From NCBI GenBank assembly GCA_030248225.1, contig JASANE010012513.1, forward strand, positions 1 to 64,000: a DNA stretch of 64,000 nt, given 5' to 3'. The stretch comes from Trileptium ribeirensis. Its lineage: Eukaryota; Nematoda; Enoplea; Enoplida; Thoracostomopsidae. Below are positions 43,832 through 62,349 of the stretch, in pieces (positions within the stretch are counted from its first letter, which is position 1; every line of letters begins with the position of its first letter). The position numbers and the translations under genes were made by a program. A model generated the notes under the pieces. That model was given only the letters and a program-made list of their open reading frames with translations. It was not told the origin of the DNA and ran no database searches.

Positions 43832-44561
43832 AAACACTATTCTACCGCAGGGCATAGCTGTGTCGGAGCGGATATGCCATGCCCACCAGTTGCTCAGGGC
43901 CCGGGTGGCTGGAACGGCCCGACTCGACCGACGGTGGGACGCTGCCGTTTTGTCAGGGCTGTTAGGGTTCGCATCTCCGTTCCTGCACACTATGCCTGGA
44001 ATACACGTCAGCAGTTGCATGTTAAACCACCTAGAGGGACTTTTAGAGATCGTTGCCCGGGTTATCGACGCAATGAGCATTACACAGGCAATCACAGAAG
44101 TGTATCGGTCTCAAATTCCTATCCTTCAAACATGCATCGTATGCGAGGAACGACATAATCCAAATTTCATGCCTGGGGAAGAGTGTGCTTTTATCACTTA
44201 TCACGGTGAATGGGATTACACTGGGAATCTGTCCGCAGATTATGGAACCATTAGGCGGGACGGGACAGTATCTATTCGACCAAATAGCACACAAGGATTA
44301 CACACGGCCTACGAACTCATAGCGTATAGGGAAGCCAACTTGGAGTTTCTAGAAACCATTATAGATGCGCCGTACCTATTAGACCACCTAGTTACGGAAT
44401 TTGACGAAACCGGACCTAAGGTTCCGGTGCAGTCACTACATCGCATCGTGTATGCTATAATGGCTAATGCCCTTTTCATCGATATAGATAGTAAACCAAA
44501 GCGCGAGGAACTACTCGACTATTATGGTTGCGCAACCTGCCCAGAACATTTGGCAGAATGA
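43800..44561 (+). CDS. Small ORF between the repeat-bearing ORF and env
   Basis: The frame is open from 43800 to TGA 44559-44561, about 250 codons. No good ATG lies near the beginning, so it may be reached by a frame change from 41588-43831 or by splicing. The sequence is non-repetitive, with a C-x-x-C pair (CIVCEERHNP) and a GEWDYTGNLSADYGT segment. I recognise no family. It overlaps the start of the envelope ORF by 38 bases. Confidence 0.5.
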   Translation, partial: ATFWGRSDAGENTILPQGIAVSERICHAHQLLRARVAGTARLDRRWDAAVLSGLLGFASPFLHTMPGIHVSSCMLNHLEGLLEIVARVIDAMSITQAITEVYRSQIPILQTCIVCEERHNPNFMPGEECAFITYHGEWDYTGNLSADYGTIRRDGTVSIRPNSTQGLHTAYELIAYREANLEFLETIIDAPYLLDHLVTEFDETGPKVPVQSLHRIVYAIMANALFIDIDSKPKREELLDYYGCATCPEHLAE

Positions 44562-46341
44562 CCCAATGGACGACACGGACCAGGTCCCAAACATGGACCA
44601 TGACGCGGACATAACATTTATCGACGAAGAGGAACTTGAAAGTGAGTTGAGTGCCGTACTCAGTGATGCCAGCAGTGACGAATTGGACATACCAGCGATT
44701 GACTCATTTGACTCCGACGACCTCATCTCTGAGCCAAGTTTCTCCGTGGACACCGAGAATGCCAGCAATGGACATGATAATGCTAACGACGGGAGTGACC
44801 GGGCATCACCGACCAGGTCGGTACGGTCCTCTCCACACGTATTCGGACAGGGTATCGAAGCTGCGGTCGGATTCCTAAATAAGGGAACTAGAATAATGGG
44901 ATTGCTACTTGCTCTACTAACCCTTCATCAATTAGGTCAAACTCACGCTATTGCTACACCATTCTCGGATCAGGTCGCACGCTTAGGAGCTATGGTAAAT
45001 CAACAAGTGGGTACGTTAATCGAACCGCAAGACTTAGTAATAACCGCTTCGCAATCTACCTTTTTACCAATAATTTTACGGCTATCCTTAGATGGACTAC
45101 AACCTAGCAGGCAAGCCACTGGTATGGCGTGGTGTGTATACACTCCTCGGGGTAAACCATGTTTGGGGAATTGTTGTCCCAATCCAAATTGTACTACCAT
45201 GCCGGATTTACAACAGAAAGTACAGGAGTTAGAAAGAGAATTAAGAAGCACATATCAAGGTGTACTAGATACTAGTTACTACATGGCACTAATGCGCGAA
45301 TATTGCGAGGCGAATTCTCATCTCTGTGAGGAACCTAAAGTCAGAAAGAAGCGATTTCTCGCTGCATTAGCTGGAGCCGCAGGCGTAGTAACAGGATTTT
45401 TAGGTGTCGGTGTAGCGTTCACCAACGCTGTACACCTTAAGGACTTAAATAAGCAGGTGCTAGCGTTATCTAAAGAAATGAGGAACACATATAATGTCGC
45501 TTATGGTAATTCGCGAGCGATCATGAAATTAACGCACGCTAATGAGGAGTTATACTCGTTTTTACATCATGAGATGCAGGAGGTAGTTACTATGATCGAT
45601 CAGGTAAGATGCCAGGAGCAACGCTACGTAACTGAGGTTCATCGCGAGCTAGTAAACCACATGTTTCGCACCAGCCTTCGATCATCGGTCGACGCAGTCA
45701 TGGAAGCCATGATGAGTGGTCAATTATCGCCTAAGGTAGTGGACGCATCCACGCTTAAGAACTTATTCCAAAAGAACTCGCAGATAGCGCAGACGATTTT
45801 AACACGCGAACCTGCATTGGCATACCAATTTGGACAAATCTACCCAGTGCACATCGATCTAGGCTCATTTAAATTTGCTTTCATACTGCGGGTCCCATTA
45901 GTCACGTCGGACGATGTCCGACCCTACTTTCGCATATATAACGTCGGCTGGAACGTCCCAGAACGCAGTGCTCACATGAAATTACCATTACCTGATTACG
46001 CTACGCGGATTGAACGCGCACGCTATGAAGTGCTAAAACTGCATGCTTGCAACACACGACCAGGCATTGCCTTCTGTGAAATACACGCCTTAGCAACGGA
46101 CCATACGTCGCGTTGTTTGGACTGGATCATCATGGGTGAGGACGCTCCAGAGGAAGCTCATCAACTCTGCAAGAACAGTGCATTGGTCGGGCCAATGGCA
46201 AACCATACAGATGTCTACACCACGGCACAAGGAGTTTTAATTCGAACTGCTGAACGTAAGGCTGTCGTCTCCAAGAAGAAACATCTCAGCCACGTTACCC
46301 GAGGGGAGACAATTAACATTGCTGACAACGGAGATTTGTGA
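44524..46341 (+). CDS. env: Envelope-like glycoprotein, main ectodomain
   Basis: Described by feature only. 605 codons from ATG 44524. Codons 1-120 are acidic (Asp/Glu/Ser) and probably internal. A hydrophobic segment at about codons 125-143 would act as an internal signal or membrane segment. The following region has cysteine pairs, with a Cys-Cys-Pro cluster near codon 218. A tetrabasic furin-type site RKKR is at codons 274-277. Directly after it is an Ala/Gly/Val-rich stretch like a class I fusion peptide, followed by a heptad-rich helix, as in many viral fusion proteins. There is an N-x-T glycosylation site at about codon 561. The ORF stops at TGA 46339-46341, before any membrane anchor; the same frame continues into the anchor encoded with pol. 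The family (errantivirus/baculovirus F or other) is unresolved. Confidence 0.75.
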   Translation: MVAQPAQNIWQNDPMDDTDQVPNMDHDADITFIDEEELESELSAVLSDASSDELDIPAIDSFDSDDLISEPSFSVDTENASNGHDNANDGSDRASPTRSVRSSPHVFGQGIEAAVGFLNKGTRIMGLLLALLTLHQLGQTHAIATPFSDQVARLGAMVNQQVGTLIEPQDLVITASQSTFLPIILRLSLDGLQPSRQATGMAWCVYTPRGKPCLGNCCPNPNCTTMPDLQQKVQELERELRSTYQGVLDTSYYMALMREYCEANSHLCEEPKVRKKRFLAALAGAAGVVTGFLGVGVAFTNAVHLKDLNKQVLALSKEMRNTYNVAYGNSRAIMKLTHANEELYSFLHHEMQEVVTMIDQVRCQEQRYVTEVHRELVNHMFRTSLRSSVDAVMEAMMSGQLSPKVVDASTLKNLFQKNSQIAQTILTREPALAYQFGQIYPVHIDLGSFKFAFILRVPLVTSDDVRPYFRIYNVGWNVPERSAHMKLPLPDYATRIERARYEVLKLHACNTRPGIAFCEIHALATDHTSRCLDWIIMGEDAPEEAHQLCKNSALVGPMANHTDVYTTAQGVLIRTAERKAVVSKKKHLSHVTRGETINIADNGDL

Positions 46342-49300
46342 CTGTGGCACAATAACTATACCCAGCTCGTGGTCGGGCCACTTATGCTGGCTAGCACACT
46401 AGACGCGCAGGAAGTCACAATCCATATTGGGCCTAACATCACTGTCCATGACTTTCCGGACATACCGCTCAAACCAATTGCTTGGAGCTCGTTGGAACAC
46501 GCTAAAGCGACGAACTTACAGGTCCAACAAATAGCAGACGAGCAGTTGAAGAAGGTAATTGACTTCCCATACATCACTACCACTGGCGTAGCTCCTTATT
46601 TATGGATGCTCATCGTGCTAGTAGCTGCTGGCATTGGGGCCATAATCTACTTTAGGAAGAAGGCTGGATTCTGTCCCAAATGCATCAAGGGGCGCCTACA
46701 GCGTTGGTGGCAACAACGACCATGTGCTCGGGAGGAACTAAGGCGACCCGAATTGCACATTAAGACGGAAAATGAGTATGGCACCACAGACACGTCCCGA
46801 CCAACAGTTTCAGCTCCAGCTGCTTCCACTGAGCACCTCGAATTACGTACAATGAGCCCTCGCCGCTCAGCACGATTAAATGTTACCAATGAAGATGAAA
46901 GCGTCGTTCTAGTAGAGCCTACTGAATTATTCGCAGTATCTGAGCGATCCCAACGTCGAGGACATCGCACCGCAGCATACCACCGACAAGTCAACGCGAT
47001 ACATCATATGGACGCACCCTTACTCATCAATGCTTTTGTATACCGCACGCCAGCACTTACACTAATAGATACAGGTGCAGACGTGTCCATCGTATCACAA
47101 TACTTGGTAAATAATTTAGGCCTCCAGCCGCAACCTGACGATTCCACCAGGATAGTATCTGCCACCAAACAGGAACTAACTTTAGACGGCAGCATAAGTG
47201 TACCTTTGTCGATCGGGTCCATAAAGGTACAAACCAAATTCTTTGTCACTAAAACAGCACCTTATCACTGCATCATAGGAACAAATTTTATGTCCCAACT
47301 GCCAAAGTGCATCATAAATTTTAAAGAACGTTGCTTAGAAATAGCAGTGGACGAGGAAGAAGCTAAAATACCTTTTGCAGGATTAGAACGGTACGACCCA
47401 CCACTAATTGCAGTAATGTGTCGGAAGCTCACCACAATAGAACCAAACACTGAAACATTCATTAATGCGATCCCAGAAATAGCCGAAACAGGCGTAGGAC
47501 CGGCACTATTTGTGCCCGCACCAGAAATGGTTGACATCGCAATGGCACATGCATTAGTGTTAAGAAGCCAAAGAACCATACCAATCGCAGTAATTAATTT
47601 CGGGAACACACCAGTCACTATTTATGCCGGACAAACGATAGGTCACATTGAGGTAATGATGAATCCCAACGTGCAATTCTTGAAAGACACAAACAAAAAT
47701 TTGGTCCGGTACGAGGAGCACAAACCTGCCAAGCAATTAAATAACATTACTGCACACCCTGAAAGAATCATCCAATACATAGAGGCAGGGAAAAGGTCAA
47801 TTGACCATGAAAGAGCTCAAACGGTCTTGAGTAAAATAGATTTCGATAAGACCCTACTGTCCCCGTTTGAGCTAAAACAGTTGAAAACCGCAATTGCTGA
47901 AAACGCAGATGTGTTCAGCACGCATGATTTTGATTTAGGACGCTACACAGAACATAGGCACCGCATAGAGACCGGAGATGCTAAGCCAATTAAGCAAGCA
48001 CCGTATCGATTAGCACATTCCTTACGTGAACCGCTTAGAGAGGAACTCAATAGTATGCTAGATGCTGGACTAATATCACCATCGAGCTCACCTTGGGGAT
48101 CACCAATAGTGTATGTAACCAAGAGTGACGGCTCACTCCGACTCTGTGTGGACTTTCGGAAGGTAAACACGGTAGCAGAACAGGACGCATATCCATTACC
48201 TAGAATAGATGATATTCTGGGATGCCTCAGAAATACTAAACTAATGTCCAGCTTAGATCTAAATAAGGGTTTCTGGCAACTAGAATTAGACCCAGAGACG
48301 AAGGACAAAACATCTTTTGTAACAGTTCATGGGCAATATGAATACAACGTCTTACCATTTGGATTAAATTCATCCCCAGGAGCTTTTCAACGTTGCATGT
48401 CCATGATTTTAAAAGGGTTAGAATGGGAAAAATGCTTAATCTATATAGACGACATACTAGTATTTTCACCAACGTTTGAGGATCACCTAGCAGACCTAAT
48501 TAGGGTGTTCGATCGTTTTCGCAGAGCAAACTTAAAATTAAAACCATCAAAATGCCACTTTGGCCGAGGCAGCTTAAAATATTTAGGACACATAATCAGT
48601 ACAGAAGGTGTAAAACCAGACCCAGAAAAGGCAATAGCAATAGAAGAATTCAAACGCCCGGAGACATTGAAGCAGCTTCAAAGTTTCCTGGGACTAGTAG
48701 GTTACTATCACAAATTCATACCAAGCTACTCAGATATATGCGAACCACTGAACGAACTGAAACGCAAAGACGCGGTATTTAAATGGACTCCTAAGTGTCA
48801 GGATGCATTTAAGAAGCTAAAACAAGCGCTATTAGATGAACCAGTACTAATAAATCCCGATTTTACACAGCCGTTCATTTTGCAGACGGACGCTTCAGGA
48901 TACGCAATGGGTGCAGTGCTCTCGCAGAAAACTAAACAAGGTCTTAAACCCAGTGCGTACGCGAGCAAGGCTCTGCTAGATTATCAACGCCGTTACCCCG
49001 CAATCGAAGCTGAGGCTCTCGCAATCAGATGGGCAGCGCTACACTTTAAGCATTACCTCGTAGGACACAAATTTCATGTCGAAACCGATCACAAGCCGCT
49101 AAAAGCCTTGTTTGACAAGCCGCCTAGGAACTCACGCTTATCCCAATGGCGTAGTGAATTACTACTTGAGTTCGGAGGATTTGAAATACTATATAGACCA
49201 AGTAAAGAGAACGGCAATGCCGATGCTTTGTCGCGGGATCCTAGATACGATCCATCTCTTGGTGAGGAACAAGGAAATACCTATGAAATACTGATGATGG

Positions 49301-49452
49301 GTCGAGGACGACCCACCGGCTCTCGTCCACCAACAACCTGCGCCGCATGGGATCAATCGCACTTGCCGTATCTCGTACGCACAGTAACCCCGCTCGCAAC
49401 AGGGGCGCCAACAGCAGTAATAGGAAGTCCGATTGCTCCCCCAGGACAGTGA
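46342..49452 (+). CDS. pol: Envelope membrane anchor fused in frame to protease-RT-RNase H
   Basis: This frame follows directly after the env TGA. It begins with an ectodomain-like stretch containing an N-x-T site, then a transmembrane segment at about 46594-46656 (YLWMLIVLVAAGIGAIIYF) followed by basic residues and CPKC. Next come a linker and an aspartic protease (LIDTGADVSIVS, D at 47068). The reverse transcriptase carries DFRKVN, LDLNKGFWQLEL, LPFGLNSSPGAFQR and the catalytic YIDD at 48442-48453. The RNase H carries LQTDASGYAMGA, EAEALAIRWA and VETDHKPLKAL. The motifs are of the Gypsy/Ty3 type and intact by eye. The ORF ends at TGA 49450-49452 and the same frame continues into integrase. 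No ATG lies close to the start; the first is at 46384. Expression by readthrough or splicing is possible. Confidence 0.9.
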   Translation: MWHNNYTQLVVGPLMLASTLDAQEVTIHIGPNITVHDFPDIPLKPIAWSSLEHAKATNLQVQQIADEQLKKVIDFPYITTTGVAPYLWMLIVLVAAGIGAIIYFRKKAGFCPKCIKGRLQRWWQQRPCAREELRRPELHIKTENEYGTTDTSRPTVSAPAASTEHLELRTMSPRRSARLNVTNEDESVVLVEPTELFAVSERSQRRGHRTAAYHRQVNAIHHMDAPLLINAFVYRTPALTLIDTGADVSIVSQYLVNNLGLQPQPDDSTRIVSATKQELTLDGSISVPLSIGSIKVQTKFFVTKTAPYHCIIGTNFMSQLPKCIINFKERCLEIAVDEEEAKIPFAGLERYDPPLIAVMCRKLTTIEPNTETFINAIPEIAETGVGPALFVPAPEMVDIAMAHALVLRSQRTIPIAVINFGNTPVTIYAGQTIGHIEVMMNPNVQFLKDTNKNLVRYEEHKPAKQLNNITAHPERIIQYIEAGKRSIDHERAQTVLSKIDFDKTLLSPFELKQLKTAIAENADVFSTHDFDLGRYTEHRHRIETGDAKPIKQAPYRLAHSLREPLREELNSMLDAGLISPSSSPWGSPIVYVTKSDGSLRLCVDFRKVNTVAEQDAYPLPRIDDILGCLRNTKLMSSLDLNKGFWQLELDPETKDKTSFVTVHGQYEYNVLPFGLNSSPGAFQRCMSMILKGLEWEKCLIYIDDILVFSPTFEDHLADLIRVFDRFRRANLKLKPSKCHFGRGSLKYLGHIISTEGVKPDPEKAIAIEEFKRPETLKQLQSFLGLVGYYHKFIPSYSDICEPLNELKRKDAVFKWTPKCQDAFKKLKQALLDEPVLINPDFTQPFILQTDASGYAMGAVLSQKTKQGLKPSAYASKALLDYQRRYPAIEAEALAIRWAALHFKHYLVGHKFHVETDHKPLKALFDKPPRNSRLSQWRSELLLEFGGFEILYRPSKENGNADALSRDPRYDPSLGEEQGNTYEILMMGRGRPTGSRPPTTCAAWDQSHLPYLVRTVTPLATGAPTAVIGSPIAPPGQ

Positions 49453-51207
49453 AACCCCGAGGCAATCCCATCGCAACTAGTTCCTGACACGCAGATAACG
49501 GCAGTACCCCCAGCAACACTCACGCAGCAAGCAGCTACGCTAAGCGCGATCCCAATTAGGATGCAGCAGGCAGAAACACCAGTAATGTCAGTACACACTA
49601 CAACCATATCGAGTTCTGGAGTCGGACCTCAGGCTCGGGGATCTAAAAGGCCACACCGGCCTGAGTCGGAAACCGTAGGACTAAGAGCAACCACATTACC
49701 GACAGAGCAGGAATTTGATAGGCTCATGAAATTAATGATGCATTATGAAACTGAGATATTACCAACAGTAAGGATCGAGGACGCACAAGACACCCACGAA
49801 AACATATATTTACCATTCTTTTCAAATCTCCCAGATTTTAACCTAGTACGGCTCTTGCCGTACATCCAAAGAAATGACCCAGAACTGGGTCCTATTTGGT
49901 GGTACTTATACAACAAGACACGGCCCAAGGCCGAATTGGGCGCACTAAGAATAGAAATGCGGGCTCATTACTTCGAACTAGCCCAAGACACGAAAATATT
50001 ATACATGCATCCACTACAACCAGGGGACATAAATTACAAATTGTGCGTCCCAATTACACTAGTACAGCAGGTACTCAAACACGAACATAACACATTATAT
50101 GGAGGACATCCTGGCCGCGATCGGCTACTAGCAAAATTAAAGCAATTTTACTACTGGAAGGGTATGTCGGAGCACGCACAACAATGGATCAGGCGATGCA
50201 CCCTATGCCAATCCGCGAAGGACCCAATTGCTCGGATAACCACCGGATTGGGTAGGGTTCCGTTGGCAAATCAACCAATGTATCGTGTATTCGTAGATAT
50301 ACTCGACATTCAAGTTCGGTCGCAAGCGGGTAACCGCTATGTTATTGCATTCATCGATCAATTCACAAAATTCGCAATAGCAGTCGCAATAAGGCACCAG
50401 GATGCACACACAGCCGCACACATATTTTTATATGAGGTAGTTAATAAGTACGGGGCTCCCAGTGAGTTATATTCTGACAGAGGAGGTGCTTTCACTGCGC
50501 ATATGTTTGAAAGCCTGTGCCAGGAAATGCACATATTTCGGCACATGAGTTTAGCTTATCACCCTCAGGCAAACGGAGAAATAGAAAGATTCAATAGGAC
50601 CTTACTCTATCTATTGCGAGTAAGTGTACCCCAAAATGATCATCATTCATGGGATGTATCATTGCCATTCTGCATAATGGCCTATAATTCTTCAGTACAT
50701 ACAGCAACAAAATATCCACCATTTTTGTTAATGCATGGATTCTATCCTAGATTGCCCGGAGAATACGACACGCATAGCGCAGCTACAGGATACACCGGAG
50801 CTCACTCATATAGAGCCAACGCGCAGCGCCGGATGGCTTCCATTAGAGAACGCGCATATCAATCAATGAGAGCCGCCCAGGAAGTAAACCGGCTAAGGTA
50901 CAACAGGCGAGCTCGCGAACCACGCTATCAAACAGGTGAGTTAGTTTGGGTTTATAGACACGACACTACACCAGGAACATCTAGGAAACTTACGCCTCGT
51001 TGGTGCGGACCATACGAAATACTAAGGATCACTCCGCCATGCATGCGTGTAAGAATGCATTCCAATCCGGAAGGCATGGAACATGTCGTGCACATTAATA
51101 GGACAAAACCATGTTTTAGGGCATTAGATCCGGTACCTAATGTAGGGGACTGGTTAAGCCAGGTACACGCTTCTGTATTAGAAAGGGGACTGAACGAACC
51201 AACTTAA
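49453..51207 (+). CDS. Integrase part of pol
   Basis: In the same frame as 46342-49452 after a single TGA; the first ATG is at 49561. The zinc-binding HHCC domain is visible (HEHNTLYGGHPGRDRL, then CTLCQSAK, about 50080-50220). The catalytic core has the first Asp in FVDILDIQ (about 50295), the second in LYSDRGGAF (about 50475) and the Glu in HPQANGEIERFNRTLL (about 50580). The C-terminal part has a GPYEI motif with a following Val-rich strand (about 51005-51060), as in the GPY/F module of Gypsy integrases. It ends at TAA 51205-51207. All catalytic residues are present. Confidence 0.93.
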   Translation, partial: NPEAIPSQLVPDTQITAVPPATLTQQAATLSAIPIRMQQAETPVMSVHTTTISSSGVGPQARGSKRPHRPESETVGLRATTLPTEQEFDRLMKLMMHYETEILPTVRIEDAQDTHENIYLPFFSNLPDFNLVRLLPYIQRNDPELGPIWWYLYNKTRPKAELGALRIEMRAHYFELAQDTKILYMHPLQPGDINYKLCVPITLVQQVLKHEHNTLYGGHPGRDRLLAKLKQFYYWKGMSEHAQQWIRRCTLCQSAKDPIARITTGLGRVPLANQPMYRVFVDILDIQVRSQAGNRYVIAFIDQFTKFAIAVAIRHQDAHTAAHIFLYEVVNKYGAPSELYSDRGGAFTAHMFESLCQEMHIFRHMSLAYHPQANGEIERFNRTLLYLLRVSVPQNDHHSWDVSLPFCIMAYNSSVHTATKYPPFLLMHGFYPRLPGEYDTHSAATGYTGAHSYRANAQRRMASIRERAYQSMRAAQEVNRLRYNRRAREPRYQTGELVWVYRHDTTPGTSRKLTPRWCGPYEILRITPPCMRVRMHSNPEGMEHVVHINRTKPCFRALDPVPNVGDWLSQVHASVLERGLNEPT

Positions 51208-51462
51208 CGAATTATCGCTGATAGAGATTTCGTTACTGAGATAGAACCCGTGGACGAAGTAGCAGTGCGCACTGTAAGAACAACAGTCAGTGATAGTTCA
51301 GACACCGAGAGTATAGAAATGGGTGACCCTAACGATCCTAACTTATATCGCAGGACTTATGCTGAGATTGAGGCAGAACAAGCAGCAGTGGAGCACATTG
51401 AGTATCGAACGGACGACTACGTCCGCAAAATCCACGGACGGTCAGGAATCGGATTCCTCTGA
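51208..51462 (+). CDS. Short acidic open stretch after integrase
   Basis: The integrase frame stays open after TAA 51205 to TGA 51460-51462. It encodes an acidic, Asp/Ser/Glu-rich stretch (DSSDTESIEMGDPNDPN). The composition resembles the following ORF and the frames overlap at 51450-51462, so this may be the true 5' part of 51450-52916 separated by a frame change. Confidence 0.35.
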   Translation, partial: RIIADRDFVTEIEPVDEVAVRTVRTTVSDSSDTESIEMGDPNDPNLYRRTYAEIEAEQAAVEHIEYRTDDYVRKIHGRSGIGFL

Positions 51463-52916
51463 CTGATCCAGATAGAGAAATAGAACCCTCTTGGCCACCG
51501 ATATCGCAGGAACAGGTTACTAGCCAAGAAGCTTTTTCATACATACCAGAACCTGGTAGCCGAGACACGCAGGTAGAATATGGACGACACACCGCGCCAG
51601 TAACAACGATGGAAAGAATAGTAGCTACCAGCGAGGAAGTTCCATTCGGTGTACCGACTGTAGGTGTAGGCATACTTGAAGGACAACACTTCTATCCCGC
51701 GGATGTTACGCTGTCCACTACACCTCGAGGAGCTTCAGGCGGAATTGTCGTACCTGGTCCATACACCTCAGGAGACCTGCGTTACGCAATTATTCTCGCC
51801 GCACAGGACCATCCGTTATTCCAATCTCGTCCAGCTGAACATATTATGGCATCGCGGCTGCGGGTACCAATGGAAATGTCAACTCAAACCGTAGGAGACT
51901 ATACCACAATACGTCCTTATAGCGCTCCGCCAGTAGCTGCCGACAGACCTATGTTTCCCCATCAATATGTTTTTCGCGAAGTAGCCTTTACTCAACCTCC
52001 AGGGTCACCAATGTCCAGCTACCTGTCAGAGACATCTGGTGAAGGTACCACAGTGGACGTGAGAGCAGCCGAAGCGGACGACGAACTAACTAGCCAGACA
52101 TCACAGGAGCCCTCTTCAGCTGAACGACGCGGTCAAGCGGGACAAGAAACATCCAGTAGTAGTTCCAGAACACCTACTACACAACCGGGAGCATCCGACT
52201 CACTAAGCGAATTTACGCTTGCGGAATCAAGTAGCGAACCACCAGCACCCCGAATGGGAATCGTTCACGCAGTAACCTTAGGTACCCCTCCCCGCACACG
52301 AGCATCGACAGAAGAACGAGGAAAGGCGCTTGTCGGACGGGCCACGCAACGGAAACAGGTTGTATCAACACGAGGAGGTTCGACCACCCAGTCTGGCCCC
52401 ACTGATCAGCCAGGACCATCCACGGTAACCATCACTGAGCAGGTACACCCCACTACTGCTGCTACTACCTCCTCAGGAACAATACGCCTTAGTACGACTC
52501 AAGCGACGGTCCCAACCAGACACTTACTACATCGCCAGGCCAGGGACCGGGTCTTTAGGCCATACGGCGCAGCATCCGACGAAGAGGTAGGAGACGCCTT
52601 ACGCAGACCCAGACGTGTAACTTTCCAGGAACCACGGACGACCATCATCGAAGCGGCAGGAACATCGACTAGACTAGCCTCTACTACACGCACACAATCC
52701 ACCACTGTCACCACTTCAATGACAAGCGCACCAACACCAACCCCACGACAGCTTTTAATGGAAGGACGCTCGCCAGATGGGACACAACCACCAACCTCAT
52801 TTCCCCGATGTCCTTCTAGCCAGGAATTACACCCTGCAGCTTGGCGACGACGAACACCCCGACCGCCACCACATGATGAGTCTGACTCGAACGACCCTGA
52901 CCTACGGGTGAACTAA
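51450..52916 (+). CDS. Ser/Thr/Pro-rich accessory ORF, function unknown
   Basis: The frame opens at or before 51450 and its first ATG is 51609, giving 435 codons to TAA 52914-52916. The first third looks moderately ordered (GVPTVGVGILEGQHFYPAD, then HPLFQSRPAEHIMASRL). From about residue 140 it is low-complexity, rich in Ser, Thr, Pro, Gln and Arg, as in disordered proteins. A basic RRPRRVTF segment lies near 52600. No domain is recognised. It sits between integrase and the NADAR genes, in the same orientation. Confidence 0.6.
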   Translation, partial: RIPLTDPDREIEPSWPPISQEQVTSQEAFSYIPEPGSRDTQVEYGRHTAPVTTMERIVATSEEVPFGVPTVGVGILEGQHFYPADVTLSTTPRGASGGIVVPGPYTSGDLRYAIILAAQDHPLFQSRPAEHIMASRLRVPMEMSTQTVGDYTTIRPYSAPPVAADRPMFPHQYVFREVAFTQPPGSPMSSYLSETSGEGTTVDVRAAEADDELTSQTSQEPSSAERRGQAGQETSSSSSRTPTTQPGASDSLSEFTLAESSSEPPAPRMGIVHAVTLGTPPRTRASTEERGKALVGRATQRKQVVSTRGGSTTQSGPTDQPGPSTVTITEQVHPTTAATTSSGTIRLSTTQATVPTRHLLHRQARDRVFRPYGAASDEEVGDALRRPRRVTFQEPRTTIIEAAGTSTRLASTTRTQSTTVTTSMTSAPTPTPRQLLMEGRSPDGTQPPTSFPRCPSSQELHPAAWRRRTPRPPPHDESDSNDPDLRVN

Positions 52917-53059: not shown

Positions 53060-54291
53060 ATGCGACGAAGCTGCAGCGCAAACGACATCCGAAGGCCGCT
53101 GATACCAAAAGGCGTGCCGCACGTACCGATGGTTTGTGGCAACGGCGTTTACCCGGCGGTGCCCATCTACCGCATTCAACGAGGGCCGCTCGTGCAAATC
53201 TTTGCCTCTAAAGGCACCTGTCGGCCCTGCTCGGCAACGAAACCACCACAATTGACACATTCGAGCATAACGGGCGGCGACTGTCCAGCGCGTCCGAACA
53301 CTTTCACCTCAGCATCCTGGAGCTGCTGGGCTTTGATAACGCCGGAAAGGAACTGGCTAAAGCGGACATCAGCCCAACGGAGCTGCAACTCCGCAGCATT
53401 GCATTACTTCGTCGGCTGCCGCTCAAAAGGCGGCATATGCTCCAGGCCTATTACCCGCACATCATGCGGCCAATTCTACTGGCCAAGTTCCCCATAATCG
53501 AATGTGCGGAAGAGCTGGAAGCCACCGGCGACCGACTTTTGCTCAGCGCGGCGTTTGACGACTTTTGGGGAACCGGCACGACCCACATCCAGTGTTGTTG
53601 TGACCGCACGTTCCACAACGTGACGGGTCGTCTGCTCGAAGAAATCCGAGCATATTATCGGGACGGCCTCGTGCGATGGCCCCAAGTCATCATCGTGGGC
53701 GACGAACAAGCGTTACCATTGCTCAACGTCGCCGACCAGCATAACTGGCTCGTGTTCGCTTGGCCGCGTATGGAGATGGCCGACCTGGTCCAATGGGCCA
53801 ACGCCTTCGTTACGCCACAGACGGACTGCGTAATTGTCCTCGGCGGCTATGGCAAACTGTGGCAGGCCGACCGCAAGGTCTATTCGCCCAGTGCGTTCAC
53901 CAAGCGCATTAAGCGGAAACTGGAGGTCCTCGAGCGACGCCTCCGCGAAAACGCAGCCGTCTATATCGCTCCGCCGCCACCACAGTGGAATGCTACGAAT
54001 TACACCAGCGACGCGTGGGCGACGGAGCTGCGCATGCGGAAGCTAAGCCTCACCGAGCAACACCAGGCCCTGCGGAACGTCATCATGCCCGCATGGTCGG
54101 TACCGTTAACGGCACCCGAAGCCTGGGATACGGTCGGACCGTTCAACCGGGGTGAGGATCGCCAGCGATGGGCCGAACCGGTGGTAGCGCCCGCTTATCA
54201 GAAGGAACTGGTCAATTGGGTGGGCTACTATGTTCGTTGCACCGGACTCTTTCGCCTCGGCGAGCAACGGAGATGCGACGAAGAAGAGTAA
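53060..54291 (+). CDS. NADAR-SGNH-like protein 1 (with one frame change)
   Basis: NADAR (YbiA/DUF1768) domains act on ADP-ribosyl or related N-glycosidic bonds. The N-terminal strand (GPLVQIFASKGT) is read from ATG 53060. Near 53205-53220 the frame must change, after which the domain continues: RRLSSASEHFHL (Glu at 53296), SPTELQLRS, HIMRPILLAKF, an LEATGDRLLL helix, DDFWGTG (Trp at 53566) and NVTGRLLEEIR. These are the NADAR landmarks. From about 53680 a second domain resembles SGNH hydrolases: IIVGDEQALP, FAWPRMEMADLV and DCVIVLGGYGKLW. The expected GDS serine is Glu (53704) and the GxND block reads GGYGKLW, so hydrolase activity is doubtful. ATG 53437 lies inside the domain and is not the real start. 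The frame change could be a mutation or recoding. Confidence 0.75.
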
Positions 54292-54551
54292 TGCTCATTT
54301 AGGAACTTATTCGCACGTGGGTACCTCCAGCTGAAAGAAACAGACAACTGGTTAGGAGTCATAGAACACCATAGAGCGGTAGAAAACACAACCCTTTAGG
54401 GCCTAAAGAATCCCGTCTGCGAACGCACGCGAGAGAATCAAGCACAGGACTAGAAGGTACGCAAGCCTTTGCATGTGGTTGCACTAGTATGCGTAGCGTA
54501 AACCGACTGTTGTGAGAAGGGACAAAACCTATAAAGGTTATATTATTACAG

Positions 54552-55879
54552 ATGGACAACAGCGTTCGGCAACGCGGTGAGGACTACAAAGACAACAACA
54601 GCGTTCGGCGACGCAGCGACAGTCAGGTGGACCATAGCGTTCGGCAACGCAATGGCAACGACATCAGACGCTCCGAAGGCGATCCAACCGGCGGGTATCA
54701 ACGACCGGACCGTACGCCCCGCCCGAAGCCACTACGTACCGCCTGCCTATCATTCCAACGTACCATGTCGACCTGACGAAGCCGTACGTTCCCTTCCAGT
54801 CGCACGGTACCGAGTGGCCGGAGCTGTCCAACATGCACGAGGCAGCGACGCCCTTCCACCATGACGGCACGACGGCCCCGACCGTCGAACAACACTACCA
54901 GGTAAGGGTGCTGCTCGTGCTTGGCCTGATAGAGGCGGCCAAAGAACTCATGGACATGATTGGGACGCCGCAGCAGATAAAAACCAGAGCGCGGGCGCTA
55001 AAGGACGAACTGATCGACAACATCACCAGTGCCCGGCTCAAACCGTTGTTGGAACACATAATGCGGCCCATACTGCTCTGCAAATTCAACATTCCCAGCT
55101 ACGCGCGGATCCTACACCTCACTGGCCAACGACCGCTCCTGGAGGTAACCACCGATACCTTCTGGGGTGTCGGACGTACGATCCAACAGCTGCGGCATGG
55201 TGAACAACCCAGGAATTGCCACAATGTCATGGGACGGCTCTTGGAAGAGGTGCGTGAGTACCTCACTTCTGGCTACGCTTGCTGGCCACATGTCATCATT
55301 ATGGGCGACGCGCTTCCGCTGCCGTTGCTGGAGATGGCCAATGACAATAAATGGCTGGTCTGCGCATGGCCTGGCACCACGCTAATACGCATGATTCAAC
55401 TCGCCAGCGCTGTCCTAACGCCGCTAACCAAGTGCGTCATCTTACTTGGAGGCTACCAATACATTTACCGGAAGGCGCAACCGGAGCAGCTCCATGCGAC
55501 CAACCCAAACGCAGCCTTCAAGAAGATCAAACGCCATCTGGGAATGTTATCTCGGCGAGTACCAGCGCGCACGCCCGTGATTCTCGCACCGTCAATACCC
55601 CGATGGGTCGCGACCAACCAGGATGCAACGTCCTGGACTATCGAATTCAAACGCATAGTCGCTAACCATCGGCAACAGCACGACGCATTCCACAACGTCT
55701 ACTTCCCAAAAACTGGCCAGTCGCTTTCAACGCCGCGGACGCCTGGGAACGAGACGAACCGCATATGGAATGGCAAGAGCGCCCACAGTTCGAGGAGCCA
55801 ATGGTTTCCAAGTACTGCCTGCGTAATTTGCGGGAGTGGGTTAGCCAGTTGGTACGCGATGCCGAACTTGGACGCTTAA
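54552..55879 (+). CDS. NADAR-SGNH-like protein 2 (paralogue of the preceding gene)
   Basis: The second copy of the same two-domain protein. The domain frame is open from about 54608 and includes KPYVPFQSHGTEWPELSNM (N at 54830), then TVEQHYQ (Glu at 54887), HIMRPILLCKF, DTFWGVG (Trp at 55163) and NVMGRLLEEVR. The SGNH-like part has IIMGDALPLP (the serine position is Ala, 55310), CAWPGTTLIRMI and KCVILLGGYQYIY. The only ATG in this frame, 54833, falls just after the conserved LSN. The real start is probably ATG 54552 in another frame, which encodes a repeated SVRQR-type segment (54555-54660), joined by a frame change before about 54735. The C-terminus after about 55720 departs from paralogue 1, perhaps by a further frame change. 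The two paralogues show a local duplication within the element. Confidence 0.72.
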
Positions 55880-57026
55880 CGCGGTAGGCGAGTGCAATAA
55901 GGGGCATAGAGCGTGGACCATTAGAAAAGTAGGAGTAAGCGTGCGAGTATTCAAGAAACATAGATAGTAGATAAGGATGGCTGGAACAAGAAAAGCGAAA
56001 AATAACGAGCTACGACGAACATAAACGCGGTATAGCAAATAACCGGTAGGACAGTGTAGGGCGAGCAAAGTAGTGCACAGACGCGAATCACCAAACTGTG
56101 CATCGCGAACGGACCAATGCCACTTCTGAATAACCTAATAATAGGGAGGCTTAGTACTTAAATTAAAGTGAATAAAGTATAACTTTAGTACAAACTAGAA
56201 TAGTCAAACTAATTATCACGAATAGTATAGGCGGCACCTAAGTAACCTGATCATGATAACATCCATTTCCAAAATTAGGGTAAACCGAGCGAAACCTAAT
56301 TATGAATTATCTAGCAAGACTACCGAAATTTCAAGAAATGGGAACTTTTGGGAATAGGCACCCCGGCGGCCGGACCATTTCCTGGGAGTTACCTGAAAAT
56401 AAAGAAGGGATCTATTTTCAAACCCGACCCCAAATGTGGAGGTACGTGCTAAAACATTGTAATTGTACATATATATATCTATATCTATATACATGAGTAG
56501 GTTATACAATGTCATGTTATATGCGGCAAGGAGCCACATGGCCGATCTTGCGAATAACAATAAGTGGCATTTTTTTCAGAAACATATCTTAAAGACCCAA
56601 AATTTCAGGAACAGTCATAAAATATTATAGGCCATAAGGGAAAACTTCCAAAATTACCGAAAATAAAGGGAGAAGGGACGCGTTTTTGGTGGTAAATTGA
56701 TCGTCTTTCTACGCTCGTTTTAGGAAATTTTAGCAAATTTTAACCAATTTTTGGGAAATTTTTGGAAAATTTTCGAAAATTACTGCAATTTCAAGCCCAA
56801 ATGGGCTAAATTTCACAAATTTCACGCCCAAACGGGCAAATTTCACAAATTTCACGCCCAAACGGGCCAATTTTCCGAATTTCACACCAATTTTACTCAA
56901 TTGAAATCAAGGGCTGTACATCACATGGAATTAATCACGCAAAACTTTCACTTTTTCTCATCACTCGACAAATTTAACTTACTACCATAAGTAAGGAGTC
57001 TATAAAATCCAAAAAATTTTAAGAGA
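55880..57026 (+). other. Non-coding 3' region of the LTR element
   Basis: No supported ORF. It includes A/T-rich words, an atatatatctatatctatat run at 56465-56490 and short repeats at 56790-56885. The bases before the 3' LTR (57010-57026, ccaaaaaattttaagaga) are the only candidate polypurine tract, and it is weak because of the internal tttt. Confidence 0.6.
56790..56885. repeat. 30-bp repeats (aaatttcacgcccaaacgggc)
   Basis: Three imperfect tandem units. Each contains the dyad gcccaaacgggc, which could form a short hairpin, just upstream of the 3' LTR. Confidence 0.8.
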
Positions 57027-60000
57027 TGTAACAGCCCGAGTTTTACGTGGAATCTTAAACATTCAAAATCCGGCCAGAAGGGCCTCAAATTTGGGGAATA
57101 AAGGGCGATCGGATACCGGTGGAGCGTGATCCAGGAATTCATTGATATGTCATTGATACTTGTATTGAATAAAATAAAATATTGTATCGTATGCTATAAA
57201 TGTGTCATCACGCTCCACCAGCCCGAGGTGCGCGGGGTGATTTCGCACCCAAATTTGGATCGAAATCTCTGGTTGGAGGTATCCGATCGATCCCAGGTGA
57301 TTATGATTTTATGAATAATAAAATATTTGTACAATCTTCGATTGGTGTTGTAGTGCTGTACGGATGCGTAGTCGAGTCGGCCGGGGACAAGGGGAAAGAT
57401 CTCACGATTTTATCACCGCTCAGACTTAACAATTTTGTTGAGTAGGTGCCCCAGGGTCGTTTCCGGTGCGCATTCGTCAATGGTACATATTCATGTTTAT
57501 TGTTGAATAATCGAATGCATATTGTGTATGGTGCCAAGTGTCAGGATGGCTCAGGGTGCCGTGCGAAAACCCCAGGACAAAAATGCGTTTTCGAGTTTCT
57601 ATGACATCTTGGGACCTGGGAAGATCTATCCTGACACGACGGGAAATGAAACAGTTACCTTGTTACCGTTTTGTTATATATATATGCTTTAAGGGACGTT
57701 TTGAATACATGGGAAAAACGACAAGAATCGATCTAAGATGATAAAACTTCACTTTTCAATGGGTATAAGAATTTTAAAATTTTAGGGGTTTTCACAGATC
57801 TCCAACAGAAAGGGGGACATTAAACTATCATCAGGACTCTATAAGGCTTTAAAATCTCTCGTTCGGGACAACTTACTCCAAAACCCGTACATACTTATGG
57901 ACCCCCGATCCCGCGTTTGAACACCCAAATTTTCGGGCCCTAAAGCACCACATTCCGAACCAAAACTTCTCGATTTTTGGAGCTCTGTACATTACTTGGG
58001 TCCTATACTAACTATATTATTGAAAACCGGGGCCATCCGCCCCAACGGGTCTGCGCCGGACCCCCATAACTCAAATGGGACCCAAAACATTTCTATTTTA
58101 CACGCAGAAACGGGCCTCTAACGGGCCTCCGAGGGGAATTACGTTAAAATTGGGGCTCTCATGAGCAGGCGACCAGCTAGGGCATGGATATGATCCCGCC
58201 CCCGGCCGTCTGCTCCCTTTCATTCCTGAAATATAAACAAAAATAATAAAAAATTTTTATACACATAGGGCGCCTGAAGCGCTGATATATTTCTGATATT
58301 TTAAAACCCCGCGCCGACCAGCGCGAGGTTCTGCCTTGTTTACGTGCTATTTGGCACATTTCGGCCACTGTGCATTGTGGCCTGTTGTTATTGCTGGCGG
58401 CAGTTTCGTTTTTGGCAAATGCTACATAGACCGGCTGGTAGCAGGGTTGGCTACATTGACATACGGTACAGATGGTGGTTTGTTGTGTATCTACGTCGAC
58501 GTTTGATCTTTATATATATGTATCGTTTAAAGTTTTCAAAAATTTATTTAAAATTTTAAATTCTAAGAGTCTAGCATTGACAACCAACATAAAGGGGGGT
58601 AGGTAGACAGTATAAAAGAGACTGCCCGATTCCCCGATCGGGACCAGTCGAGTTTTAAGTTATTAGGAATTGGCGGTTGTCGCCATTTGAGCTTATTTTA
58701 TTAGGTTTTTGCTTTTGTTTTGGTTTGAACATAGCAGGGCTGGTTTCTCGCCGTGCCTCCACGGTGGAGAGCCTTCCCTGGTGCTCGCTTCTGTTCGATC
58801 CTACCAAGGGCCGTCCTTGCGGGCGTTGGGGTGTCGGAAGGATGCCCCGCGCGTCCGTAAGGGCCGGGCCCCGTCAAATTCGCAAAATTATCGCAAACGA
58901 ATCAAAATTTGGGTTCTCGCATAGCTCGACTGGTTCCCCGCTCCTCGGACGTTTTCCTTCTTTCACAGGTCCGAGGAGTGATTAAAATTGTTAGCTTGAT
59001 TTAGGTAAATAGCAGTGCATAAAAGCAAATGGCAGTGCATAAAATTTCTAGGCTAAGGAAAATTCAATGACGATAGTTCTGTTCTACATGATAAGGACCA
59101 AAATTTCTCTAACTAGGTCTTAGCCAAAATTTATGGGCGGTAAAGAGAATGACACGGGAGGCGTAGCCGTTTGCATTCGCGGGTGACACGCGTTGTCCTT
59201 TACTTGTCTGAGGTCGCACAGCAGCGGCGAATCCTCATTCGCTCGCTGATTCTTTTGGTTCCGGTTGGTGTGCGATGCAAACGACTGCGGGCCCGAACGT
59301 GACGAAATTTTAGGAGGATCATTAGCCGAGCATAGAACGAAACAGGGACTGGAGCTGGCGGCGACCTAAATTGTACTGAATTTTGGTGGGACGTAGGTTT
59401 TCTAACCGTGCAACTACGGGGAAGATCTATGTCGGCACCCACTCCCGGAGCTCTCTGGGAGCGAGTTTCGAATCAGTTGGGCAGGTCGCCGGCCACTCCA
59501 GTCGCTGTTGAAATTTTTGAACCCTCGGTCCCGTTTTCATGCAAAGTTTAGATCATTACAGGGGACCAATCATTGTGATTTAGCAAACGTAACTAGTCAT
59601 TTGAACGTCAGCATTCTTTCGTCAAAGACCGATTAGGCTCTACTAGAACGAAAACTGTAAGGGTATAGTACTTAGAAGGGAATGTAGCGTGTACCTCGGG
59701 GTATCTTGCAAGGTAACCGAAATAAATGTTTGTCATTTATACATGTTGTAAATAATTTGGAGTGCACCCCAATTGGGTGATAACTATGAAGTGTGTAGTG
59801 TGCAATGAAAAATGAGCCAATAGTAAATCGCTTGAATGGCGTGACGTTTTTGAAGCAGTTAGGAGTTCGGTTTAAATTCCTGTCCCCAGTAGAAACTCAG
59901 AAATTATTTTCAACAGAGCTCCCTCAGGACCTTTGAACCAAGGTCAGCTTTGTATCACTGTGAGCAAGCAATCCACCCCCACGCCCCGTCGAATCAATCC

Positions 60001-60697
60001 GCTAACGCCAGCTCGCTCGCTTCTCCGTTTTGGGCCCGAGCCGGCAATCCTCCTGCACCCCGCATTCTGTCCATGTTTTGCTCTAACTGCCTGGAGCGCT
60101 CACGCTGCAAATGCCCCCAGCATAATCGTAGCTTTGCGCAGCCCACATCACAATATGTGACACTCGTAATCATAGGTGAAACATCCAAGGGACTGGGGCC
60201 CTCGCCTCAGTGTCCTCTGCGTTATCACAACTACCCAAGATTTAGGGAACATACCTCGACTAGGCCCTGTAGAAATTGTGTGCGCTTACAATCTAAGCTT
60301 CAGGTGGTGCAACGCTCCCAGATCAGAAACGAGACAACAGCGCGTAGGGACACACCGACGGGGAAAGTAGCTAGGACCACGTTAGGACCAGAGAACCCCG
60401 CTTAGGGAATTAAGTGGATAATGAGGGAAAGGCGAGTCAGCCTTATTACCTGTGAGCAGGCTTAGGGGTTGACTCTCCCTCGGGGGACCTTCATGCCACT
60501 AGATACGTGGGCCATTATAGGGGCCAGGCCGAACACCCTGGTTAACCCGCCGGCAGCCTGCTAAGCTAAGCGGTTCCCTTAGGTCATCGCATACATCACC
60601 GGGGAGTCGTGGAAGCCGGGGTTGTCCGGGCACCACACGCTAAAGGAAAACAGTGGTGCAGCTGGGATCCCTTAGGGCCAGAACTGGTCCTAGTACA
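57027..60697 (+). repeat. 3' long terminal repeat (3,671 bp)
   Basis: It matches 34488-38156 from tgtaacagcccgag to ggtcctagtaca, with a TATA box at 58611-58618 and AATAAA at 59721-59726. The 151-codon open stretch of the 5' LTR is also open here (59950-60405) with about eight amino-acid changes. LTR copies drift freely after insertion, so that ratio says nothing about earlier selection. Confidence 0.95.
58611..58618 (+). promoter_or_regulatory. Candidate TATA box of the 3' LTR
   Basis: TATAAAAG sits in the same context as 36069-36076. It could drive transcription into the flanking DNA. Confidence 0.4.
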
Positions 60698-60828
60698 CCT
60701 ATGTATACTTTCTGAAAATACGGTCACAAACACCATGATGTCAAAGACACCATACATTGGATGGTGGCAGAGACACTGACAGTGGACAAAACTTTCATAC
60801 AGGGGTCCTTTATAACGTAAACGCTGCA
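60698..60828. mobile_element. Right part of the MITE interrupted by the LTR element
   Basis: It starts with the second CCTA target copy and contains a ggtgt/acacc hairpin (catgatgtcaaagacaccat). It ends gacaaaactttcatac, then tcctttataacgtaaacgct, the inverse of the terminus at 34188. Joined in thought with 34188-34487 it gives a MITE of about 430 bp, the size of the intact copy at 23132-23554. Confidence 0.85.
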
Positions 60829-61193
60829 ATAGGACGAGAACTGCGTGACATTATATTCAATTAGGCTTTTCACAAAATTTGTTATTTAAATATTATACTA
60901 ATAGCTCAGCTACTAGTATTTCCCCAAATTAGGCGTAACCTGTAAAGTTGCATCAGATTTCACAAGAATGGAAAGTATTACTGTGCTGGGTCCAAGTTGT
61001 GCGTGTATACTTTTGGACGCCGTACCTGTCATCTAATTTTGAAAGATACAACCGTTTTATAACCTACAAAGTAGTGAAGCCCCTTTCTTAACGCATGGCA
61101 TATTTTTTGAAGTTGGCGAAACTGGGTAATATACCGGTATCAGTCAAATTGGACATACTACATTGAAGGGGTTAATTTATAAAATATTTAATA
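60829..61193. other. Short unique stretch
   Basis: No gene or repeat recognised between the MITE end and the minisatellite. Confidence 0.6.
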
Positions 61194-62240
61194 TTTCCGG
61201 GGGAAAAATCTGCCCAGGCAGATATTTCCTTGGGAAAATCTGCCCAGGCAGATATTTCCGGGGGAAAATCTGCCCAGGCAGATATTTCCGGGGGAAAATC
61301 TGCCCAGGCAGATATTTCCGGGGGAAAATCTGCCCAGGCAGATATTTCCGGGGTAAAATCTGCCCAGGCAGATATTTCCGGGGTAAAATCTGCCCAGGCA
61401 GATATTTCCGGGGGAAAATCTGCCCAGGCAGATATTTCCGGGGGAAAATCTGCCCAGGCAGATATTTCCGGGGGAAAATCTGCCCAGGCAGATATTTCAG
61501 GGGAAAATCTGCCCAGGCAGATATTTCCGGGGGAAAATCTGCCCAGGCAGATATTTCCGGGGAAAAATCTGCGCAGGCAGATATTTCCGGGGAAAAATCT
61601 GCCCAGGCAGATATTTCCGGGGAAAAATCTGCCCAGGCAGATATTTCCGGGGAAAAATCTGCCCAGGCAGATATTTCCGGGGAAAAATCTGCCCAGGCAG
61701 ATATTTCCGAGGGAAAATCTGCGCGGGTAGATACTTCCGGGGGCGAAAGTCTGCGCAGGCAGATATTTCTGGGGCGAAAGATCTGTCCATGCTGATATTT
61801 CCGGGGAGGGACGCGGAAATCTGCCCAGGCAGATATTTCCGGGGCAAAAAATCTGCCCAGGCAGATATATTTGCGGGAGGAAATATGTGCCCATGCAGAT
61901 ATTTCAAGGACGAAATATGTCGAGATATTTCCGGGAGAAATCTGCCCAGGCAGATATTTCCGGGGGAGACATCTGTCCAGGCAGGCAGATATTTCCGGGG
62001 GTACACAGAAATCTGCCCAGGCAGATATTCCAGGGCTAAAAATCTGTCCAGGCAGATATATTTCCGGGAGGAAATATGAGCCCAGGCAGATGTTTCAAGG
62101 ACGAAAGATATCGAGATATTTCCGGGAGGAAAAATATGCCCAGGCAGATATTTCCTGGGGAAACACCTGTCCAGGGCGATATTTCAGGGAAGGCGGTAAT
62201 CTGCCCAGGCAGATATTTCCAGGGGAGGGATCTGCCCGTG
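61194..62240. repeat. 30-bp palindromic minisatellite, about 30 units
   Basis: The unit is ggggaaaatctgcccaggca followed by gatatttccg. Each holds the near-perfect dyad ATCTGCC-CA-GGCAGAT. Units from 61200 to 61740 are almost identical; from 61740 on they diverge in sequence and spacing. Since 30 is a multiple of three, several frames on both strands stay open for 150-240 codons. I regard these as by-products. Confidence 0.95.
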
Positions 62241-62349
62241 ACACAGCTTACCTCGAAATACCAATTATCCTCATTTCCGAGATTTAATGGACGTTACCGA
62301 CTGAAAACATTTTCAAGTATGATTGTTTTCGGGGCCCATGTCAACTTTA

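Follow-up and report, generated by a model that had tools for sequence, protein, structure and literature searches.

A tandem pair of fusion genes with NADAR and probable SGNH-like domains in a giant Ty3/Gypsy-type retroelement of the nematode Trileptium ribeirensis

Related proteins in retroelements, viruses and hosts

A NADAR domain of the YbiA family is found at the N-terminus of Pol in a Gypsy lineage of the brown alga Ectocarpus (PMC12477816). Like the element described here, this lineage is a Ty3/Gypsy LTR carrier of NADAR, but its domain is single and lies inside Pol, whereas the nematode element has two separate downstream genes in which a NADAR domain devoid of its usual lysine is fused to an SGNH-like domain. 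Among the matches listed, from a largely open-access literature, that paper was the sole precedent for NADAR in mobile elements. It also describes NADAR-like domains in the ORF1 proteins of Tx1 LINEs from Crassostrea gigas, and its authors suggest that these handle the RNA intermediate. Set side by side by description, both systems have NADAR in a retroelement protein, although Tx1 is a non-LTR element.

The SGNH fold has precedents of its own. In bdelloid rotifers, the Vesta LTR elements carry a GDSL/SGNH ORF3 and the Penelope-like Athena elements carry GDSL derivatives (PMC5408684). Vesta shares with the nematode element an SGNH-type gene located 3' of pol, while the Athena-L derivatives, like the nematode pair, miss catalytic residues. 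Unlike those of the pair, the invariant residues of the Vesta-type LTR GDSL proteins are said to be intact, and PMC5408684 makes no mention of NADAR. The ORF1p of the CR1-type LINE ZfL2-1, an RNA-handling protein, carries an SGNH esterase (PMC3905857); it has the same fold in a retroelement but is an active enzyme from another element class.

Outside retroelements, SNA-3 of nematodes is a multi-NADAR protein of RNA biology, the first NADAR domain of which lacks key residues (PMC9303266). It is, like the pair, a eukaryotic NADAR with lost residues, but it is a host gene, and SGNH is not mentioned in that paper. Nidoviruses and other animal RNA viruses carry NADAR domains as well (PMC9503650); these sit within polyproteins, unlike the genes described here, and PMC9503650 mentions neither retrotransposons nor retroelements.

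Gypsy elements with NADAR and LTR elements with SGNH have both been described before, and the claim of novelty in the preliminary description, which knew of no such pair in an LTR element, has to be narrowed accordingly. The tandem fused NADAR-SGNH pair was not found in the literature among the matches listed.

The element and its copies

The window, which is the whole stretch of 64,000 nucleotides analysed, contains a retroelement of 26.2 kb at 34488–60697, bounded by 3.7-kb LTRs and a CCTA target-site duplication; all features below are on the forward strand. The 5' LTR (34488–38156) starts with TGTAAC and ends with ATACA, and is 98.2% identical to the 3' LTR (57027–60697) over 3676 aligned columns, both having TG...CA ends. 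CCTA is present on both sides, at 34484–34487 and 60698–60701, and a purine tract resembling a polypurine tract precedes the 3' LTR (57021–57026), in agreement with the earlier proposal of a retroelement carrier. The LTRs, the target duplication and the domain order of protease, reverse transcriptase, RNase H and integrase classify the element, at the level of sequence, as Ty3/Gypsy-type.

A gag-like ORF (39969–41309) contains a CCHC knuckle, recognized by eye outside the Pfam scan, and ends with an in-frame TGA in the window copy. It is followed by two ORFs without assigned function, at 41588–43831 and 43860–44561, neither of which matched a Pfam family above cut-off. Open-frame length indicates that the counterpart of the first of these in other copies probably shares one open frame with integrase; from the lengths, the expected end of that long frame would be the end of a low-complexity ORF located 3' of integrase (51609–52916, no Pfam match). 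The protease, reverse transcriptase and RNase H region (46369–49452) is recognized by Pfam gag-asp_proteas, RVT_1 and RT_RNaseH, and the integrase (49561–51207) by Integrase_H2C2 and rve.

Between gag and protease there is an envelope-like region (44524–46341), identified by motif only, with a furin-like RKKR site and the hydrophobic stretch LAALAGAAGVVTGFLGVGV, as judged from sequence and hydropathy; it has no Pfam family above cut-off. By hydropathy, a transmembrane-like helix follows it at 46597–46653, close to where the next ORF starts. The envelope gene of Ty3/Gypsy elements, if present, is usually 3' of pol, although this is not a defining trait. A literature search with literal terms gave no precedent for an envelope-before-pol arrangement, and no giant LTR element among the eight matches listed looked close.

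Searches of the nematode's own genome returned 115 match rows for copy 1, the upstream gene of the pair, and 103 for copy 2, with copy 2 directly downstream in 68 of the 115 copy-1 rows. Copy 1 also occurs in a subfamily in which its protein is only 61–63% identical. Integrase gave 79 scored matches, and at 45 of these places the pair is absent from the scoring, which covers the best candidates only; for this reason the 45 places were rejected as a sign of loss. Other NADAR genes of the same genome adjoin ORFs for a Pox_A32-like ATPase and a UPF1-like helicase in the few loci that were opened.

The dN/dS ratio is 0.115 for copy 1 (11 frames; not one of the 55 pairs reaches 1) and 0.098 for copy 2 (19 frames; again not one of 171 pairs), as measured on 11 of 26 copy-1 and 19 of 37 copy-2 frames after broken or short ones were left out. 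An artefact of choosing loci by protein similarity is an unlikely source of these low values, since dS would then be low too, yet its mean among copies is 0.63–0.69. The pair is part of this element family, and purifying selection keeps both genes. That the genes are passenger DNA, captured and useless to the element, is suggested by the broken frames of the window copies and by stops in 25 of the 103 copy-2 rows, but is largely refuted by a dN/dS of about 0.1 at such dS and by the persistence of copy 1 in the divergent subfamily, and it is highly improbable.

The two genes and their domains

Two paralogous two-domain genes lie between integrase and the 3' LTR, as first described. Copy 1 occupies 53212–54291 (359 amino acids, stop to stop) and copy 2 occupies 54638–55879 (413 amino acids); both of the starts initially assigned (53213 and 54735) miss the frame by one base, and reading from 53213 gives six stops. 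Over the full alignment the proteins share 36% identity. A core of 281 codons is 39.9% identical, with 52, 62 and 31% identity at the three codon positions, which speaks for coding constraint rather than chance.

Compared with many other copies, both genes have broken frames in the window: copy 1 is interrupted close to the N-terminus, and copy 2 towards either end. The probable N-terminal part of copy 1 (53060–53210, in frame 53060–53497) is out of frame with the remainder, whereas in one other copy, L098, a similar stretch (QRGP..FASKGT) is in frame with NADAR; copy-1 open frames at other loci are often about 410 amino acids long. A probable N-terminal extension of copy 2 with SVRQR/SVRRR repeats (54552–54776, from the frame listing) is likewise in a different frame here and in frame with NADAR in other copies. 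The C-terminal part of copy 2 (55714–55887) lies in yet another frame, 55666–55887, which matches the copy-1 C-terminus in blastp (E 2e-8). Seven further rows among 103 for copy 2 have the window-type C-terminus at residues 406–413, and therefore this break is common to a minority and was probably inherited. No clear transmembrane helix was found in the pair, the top hydropathy windows reaching 1.05 and, within a predicted core strand, a borderline 1.75.

The first domain spans 53212–53652 in copy 1 and 54815–55264 in copy 2, with the catalytic glutamate codons at 53296–53298 and 54887–54889. The NADAR motifs reported earlier are present: SEHF in copy 1, VEQH in copy 2, and FWGxG and NVxGRLLEE(I/V)R. 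Copy 2 matches Pfam NADAR (PF08719) at 48.6 bits (E 1.5e-12, cut-off 35.1) and the YbiA structure 2b3w in the PDB at E 0.005. Copy 1 reaches 22.7 bits (E 1.3e-4), below the cut-off, and the natural copy-1 member with a score shown is similar at 22.8 bits; the anticipated Pfam assignment thus held for copy 2, while copy 1, which misses the threshold alone, is assigned as its paralogue. When profiles built from the natural copies were compared with 80 bacterial YbiA sequences, the P value was 7.2e-9 for the copy-2 profile and 6.9e-6 for that of copy 1, and NADAR was matched at E≤1 in all ten natural frames scanned (best 2.4e-13). These comparisons confirm by sequence that the first domain of both copies is NADAR, copy 1 by clear paralogy.

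Other collections gave weaker relationships. Both copies matched the NCBIfam riboflavin N-glycosidase and copy 2 also an anti-phage NADAR model, all below the respective cut-offs. In PHROGs both matched the unnamed family phrog_1017, and copy 1 weakly phrog_25660; nothing matched in PADLOC. In a tblastn search against phage there were two matches of NADAR type, both weak (E 4e-3 and 0.8), and no relative appeared in the scans of viral contigs with copy 2, the two-copy alignment or integrase.

The second domain (53668–54291 in copy 1, 55271–55711 in copy 2) had been proposed to be SGNH-like. Profile comparison and one fold comparison favour this, while Pfam SGNH/GDSL matched neither window copy and, at E≤1, none of the ten natural frames. 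The profile comparison scored 30.9, whereas the best of 200 column shuffles reached 17.7 and response-regulator controls scored 12.3–16.0. In a second look at the fold of copy 2 with VIA, 12 of the top 15 rows were SGNH-type hydrolases by name, with PAF-acetylhydrolase and sialate O-acetylesterase among the top rows. In Foldseek the top match was CobU and a GDSL lipase came fourth, with no match reaching E≤1e-3; VIA was the only fold comparison to favour SGNH. The AlphaFold2 models, made with two sequences, had a mean pLDDT of 47 for copy 2 and 39.5 for the second domain of copy 1 alone, which was left unused. A PDB search with the second domains alone gave chance-level matches only, and one with a profile of ten natural frames gave none. 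On profile and fold comparison the second domain is probably SGNH-like, a grade set slightly lower because the probability reported by hhalign itself is 20%.

Altered active sites and possible functions

In NADAR enzymes, a lysine holds the diphosphate of ADP-ribose; it was shown to be essential for hydrolysis of ADP-ribosylated guanine (PMC11543638). The position of this lysine (K50/K95) is occupied by Val in 19 of 19 copy-2 frames (54908–54910 in the window) and by Leu, or Val or Ile depending on the alignment, in all nine readable copy-1 frames. It is thus replaced in all 28 readable frames of the pair, whereas all 80 bacterial NADARs compared keep it, as do all 28 of the genome's other NADARs that are readable at this site. 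The equivalent of W89 is absent in the eight frames tested and kept in 30 of 30 of those other NADARs. The first catalytic glutamate (E43/E88) is present in 19 of 19 copy-2 frames and, in the SEHF context, in nine of nine readable copy-1 frames, with two gaps; in some alignments the copy-1 glutamate is displaced by one column. At the second acidic position (E125/D171) copy 2 has Glu in 19 of 19 frames and copy 1 has Ser or Asn in nine of nine readable frames; Glu is found there in 21 of 30 other NADARs of the genome.

The second domain is changed in a comparable way. Where the block I nucleophile Ser would stand, 19 of 19 copy-2 frames have Ala (55310–55312) and 11 of 11 copy-1 frames have Glu (53704–53706); all 30 frames have Tyr in place of the block-III Asn. 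A lipid or sugar esterase that helps in crossing membranes or destroying receptors, the role suggested for the bdelloid GDSL ORF3 proteins, has precedents in PMC5408684 and PMC3905857 and is in line with the two esterases among the best fold rows, but these replacements, the lack of a clear transmembrane helix and the envelope-like region already present in the element make it very unlikely.

According to the preliminary description, the pair might counter a host defence by ADP-ribosylation or act in nucleotide metabolism. NADARs are known to remove ADP-ribose from modified guanine in DNA and RNA (PMC11543638, PMC11833690), and copy 2 at least could be an active hydrolase that strips ADP-ribose from element RNA, cDNA or signals, thereby countering a host defence based on ADP-ribosylation or NAD. 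Its two glutamates, together with an Asp in 18 of 19 and a Trp in 17 of 19 frames, are kept, and the NADARs beside ATPase and helicase ORFs look as if such domains were useful to several mobile elements. The proposal is weakened by the replaced lysine, the missing W89-equivalent and nucleophile Ser, and the missing second glutamate of copy 1, and no ADP-ribosyltransferase family was matched by Pfam in the eight element ORFs scanned. A hydrolase role is thus unlikely, if plausible; since both glutamates are kept, copy 2 might have weak hydrolysis remaining.

Alternatively, the pair might serve as a decoy that shields the element by binding, but not cleaving; its ligand would be ADP-ribose, a target marked with it or a host ADP-ribosyltransferase. 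That a site lacking its usual residues is under strong purifying selection would suit this, as would the retention of ribose-side residues in copy 2 with loss of the diphosphate side. Loss of the diphosphate clamp, however, should weaken binding of ADP-ribose most of all, and there is no known partner; the decoy is a rather improbable reading.

The preferred explanation, with a probability of roughly 0.45, is that the pair are pseudoenzymes used for binding, perhaps of RNA, and kept by the element family. Sequence, copies and selection show that the two genes arose by an old tandem duplication of one NADAR-SGNH-like fusion gene, probably captured from outside, and are kept as accessory genes by a family of giant Ty3/Gypsy elements with an envelope-like region. 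A mainly non-catalytic role is proposed because both domains, in the frames examined, have lost residues on which active members depend, Lys and the W89-equivalent in NADAR and Ser and the block-III Asn in SGNH. The most likely task would be binding of element RNA or ribonucleoprotein in packaging or reverse transcription, by each protein alone or by a heteromer of copies 1 and 2.

This binding role has parallels in the LINE ORF1 proteins with NADAR and SGNH domains and in the non-catalytic SGNH of Oskar. The OSK domain of Oskar binds RNA. It is termed a non-catalytic SGNH protein in PMC3905857 and resembles the pair in having the fold without catalysis, but Oskar is an insect host protein and has no NADAR.

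A more extended scenario is doubtful: the fusion would have been taken up and duplicated, and both copies would have turned into obligate pseudoenzymes that bind RNA or ADP-ribose marks together as a heteromer, with several kinds of mobile element armed independently against a host defence of nucleic-acid ADP-ribosylation. The NADARs beside Pox_A32-like ATPase and UPF1-like helicase genes would point to such a defence.

The extra genes of retroelements reveal what these elements need from their hosts or what threatens them there. A tandem pair at a dN/dS of about 0.1, with key residues gone from both sites, provides a clean and testable case of the reuse of enzyme folds by a selfish element, probably as binding proteins. 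With NADAR genes also near ATPase and helicase genes, whether animals direct nucleic-acid ADP-ribosylation against mobile elements becomes a testable question.

The pair and its host element

The element that carries both genes spans 34488–60697 (26.2 kb) in an assembly of 687 Mb and 20,229 contigs. The presence of LTR, LINE-like and envelope-like sequence suggests a eukaryotic source, probably an animal. It is bounded by a 5′ LTR (34488–38156) and a 3′ LTR (57027–60697) of 98.2% mutual identity with TGTAAC...ACA ends, is flanked on both sides by CCTA, and has a purine tract preceding the 3′ LTR. A Pfam scan detected aspartic protease, reverse transcriptase, RNase H and integrase (zinc-binding and core) in the Ty3/Gypsy order. 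An envelope-like region, identified by motif only, lies between gag and protease and shows RKKR, a hydrophobic stretch and then a transmembrane-like helix (46597–46653). The interval 39969–52916 comprises 4316 codons, near the 4314–4346 aa of the single open frame that includes integrase in 12 of the 79 scored integrase rows, a length that would fit a single polyprotein of gag, envelope and pol. An ORF at 41588–43831 contains imperfect internal duplications (42154–42826), a 30-bp minisatellite array follows the 3′ LTR (61172–62243), and ORFs at 26930–28310 resemble a LINE endonuclease by eye.

Copy 1 and copy 2, each a gene with a NADAR and an SGNH-like domain, both lie inside this one LTR element, in frames open from stop to stop at 53212–54291 and 54638–55879. 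The preliminary description assigned NADAR to both, which holds at the Pfam cut-off of 35.1 bits for copy 2 (48.6 bits) but not for copy 1 (22.7 bits); copy 2 also matches E. coli YbiA in the PDB (E 0.005), and the NCBIfam NADAR models gave matches under their own cut-offs. Their proposed paralogy is borne out by an alignment with 36% identity and by a 281-codon core with 39.9% residue identity, coding-type identities by codon position (52/62/31%), dN of 0.67 and a dS too saturated to compute. These values indicate an old duplication, both copies of which have been retained as protein genes.

Compared with many other copies, both genes of the window have broken frames. The N-terminal piece of copy 1 (53060–53497, compared with locus L098), the N-terminal extension of copy 2 (54516–54776) and its C-terminal piece (55666–55887, E 2e-8 to copy 1) lie in other frames. 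The C-terminal frame of the window's copy 2 is reached, to residue 406–413, by 7 others of the 103 copy-2 rows, and the break is therefore common to a minority; intact proteins are probably not made from this element copy. The copy 2 extension (54552–54776) bears SVRQR/SVRRR basic repeats, found also at L082, L086, L093, L094, L096 and L098, which possibly bind nucleic acid. Hydropathy windows revealed no clear transmembrane helix in either protein (the highest window reaches 1.05 for copy 1 and, within a predicted core strand, a borderline 1.75 for copy 2), a mild argument against an envelope-like job.

Occurrence in the genome

Searches of the same genome, in which 101 of 2787 first-look candidates were scored for copy 2, 113 of 2487 for copy 1 and 79 of 5652 for integrase, gave at least 103, 115 and 79 match rows, respectively; 78 of the 103 copy-2 rows have no stop within the match. 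Within this genome the data support a pair that travels with its element family. By coordinates, and with the window included, copy 2 is located 299–657 bp downstream in 68 of the 115 copy-1 rows, copy 1 follows integrase in 33/79 integrase rows (median gap 2022 bp), and one or the other follows it in 34/79. Because scoring was confined to the best candidates, a row that lacks the pair does not demonstrate its absence. Among the best 20 of 103 copy-2 loci, 19 have copy 1 upstream, in some only partially, and the twentieth starts close to a contig end. Five rows match copy 1 at 61–63% identity, and in three of these a scored integrase lies about 2 kb away, which shows that a diverged subfamily also carries the gene.

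The genome is rich in NADAR domains: PF08719 gave 2317 first-look candidates, of which 150 were scored, each at more than 123 bits. At some loci NADAR genes adjoin a Pox_A32-like packaging-ATPase ORF (L104 and L101 by Pfam match, L102 and L115 by eye), and L104 also has a TATA-binding-protein gene in two matched stretches (PF00352, E 1e-32); these four are putative Polinton- or large-DNA-virus-like elements. Adjacency to a UPF1-like helicase ORF (L129 by AAA_12, L117 by eye) may mark another element or gene family.

Selection and altered active sites

Natural open frames from the best 20 copy-2 loci, window included, were compared after shorter or broken frames were dropped, which left 11 of 26 copy 1 frames and 19 of 37 copy 2 frames. 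The ratio of mean dN to mean dS is 0.115 for copy 1 (dS 0.69) and 0.098 for copy 2 (dS 0.63), and it reaches 1 in none of the 55 and 171 pairs. Both proteins have been under strong constraint during diversification of the family.

The P. nicotianae NADAR active site is described as E43, K50 and E125, equivalent to E88, K95 and D171 of E. coli C7, where efficient hydrolysis requires K95 and Arg replaces it only partly (PMC11543638). The first Glu, a landmark of the preliminary description, is indeed kept in 19/19 copy 2 frames and, within SEHF, in 9/9 readable copy 1 frames. The Lys position is Val in 19/19 copy 2 frames, preceded by Arg in all 19, and Leu (+7) in 9/9 of copy 1, or Val/Ile under another alignment. 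With the W89 and E125 columns assigned by residue spacing, the second Glu is present in 19/19 of copy 2 and replaced by Ser/Asn in 9/9 readable frames of copy 1, while the W89 equivalent is gone from both (4 + 4 frames tested). Copy 2 has D in 18/19 and W in 17/19. As controls, E, K, D and W are all present in 80/80 bacterial proteins of the YbiA type, and 30 other NADARs of this genome keep E (27/27 readable), K (28/28 readable) and W89 (30/30), varying at the second Glu (21/30) and at W133, which is Phe in 9/30. In the SGNH-like part, the Ser position is Ala in copy 2 (19/19) and Glu in copy 1 (11/11), and the block-III Asn position is Tyr in all 30 frames.

The genes are paired, duplicated, selected and altered in their catalytic residues. 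Residual or full hydrolysis by copy 2, which keeps both glutamates, is less probable than the binding role preferred below. A decoy role is less probable still.

Precedents and proposed role

Published precedents include NADAR in oyster Tx1 ORF1 and Ectocarpus Gypsy Pol (PMC12477816), SGNH in CR1 LINE ORF1p (PMC3905857), a GDSL ORF3 in LTR elements of rotifers together with Athena-L GDSL derivatives described as lacking the catalytic residues (PMC5408684), and SNA-3 of nematode trans-splicing, whose first NADAR domain is described as without key residues (PMC9303266). The claim of novelty is accordingly narrowed: every ingredient appears in these sources separately, and the fused, tandem, catalytically degenerate NADAR-SGNH pair was not found in the literature searched. 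The reading preferred here, at a probability of roughly 0.45, is that the two proteins would act as binders, a pair of RNA- or RNP-binding pseudoenzymes.
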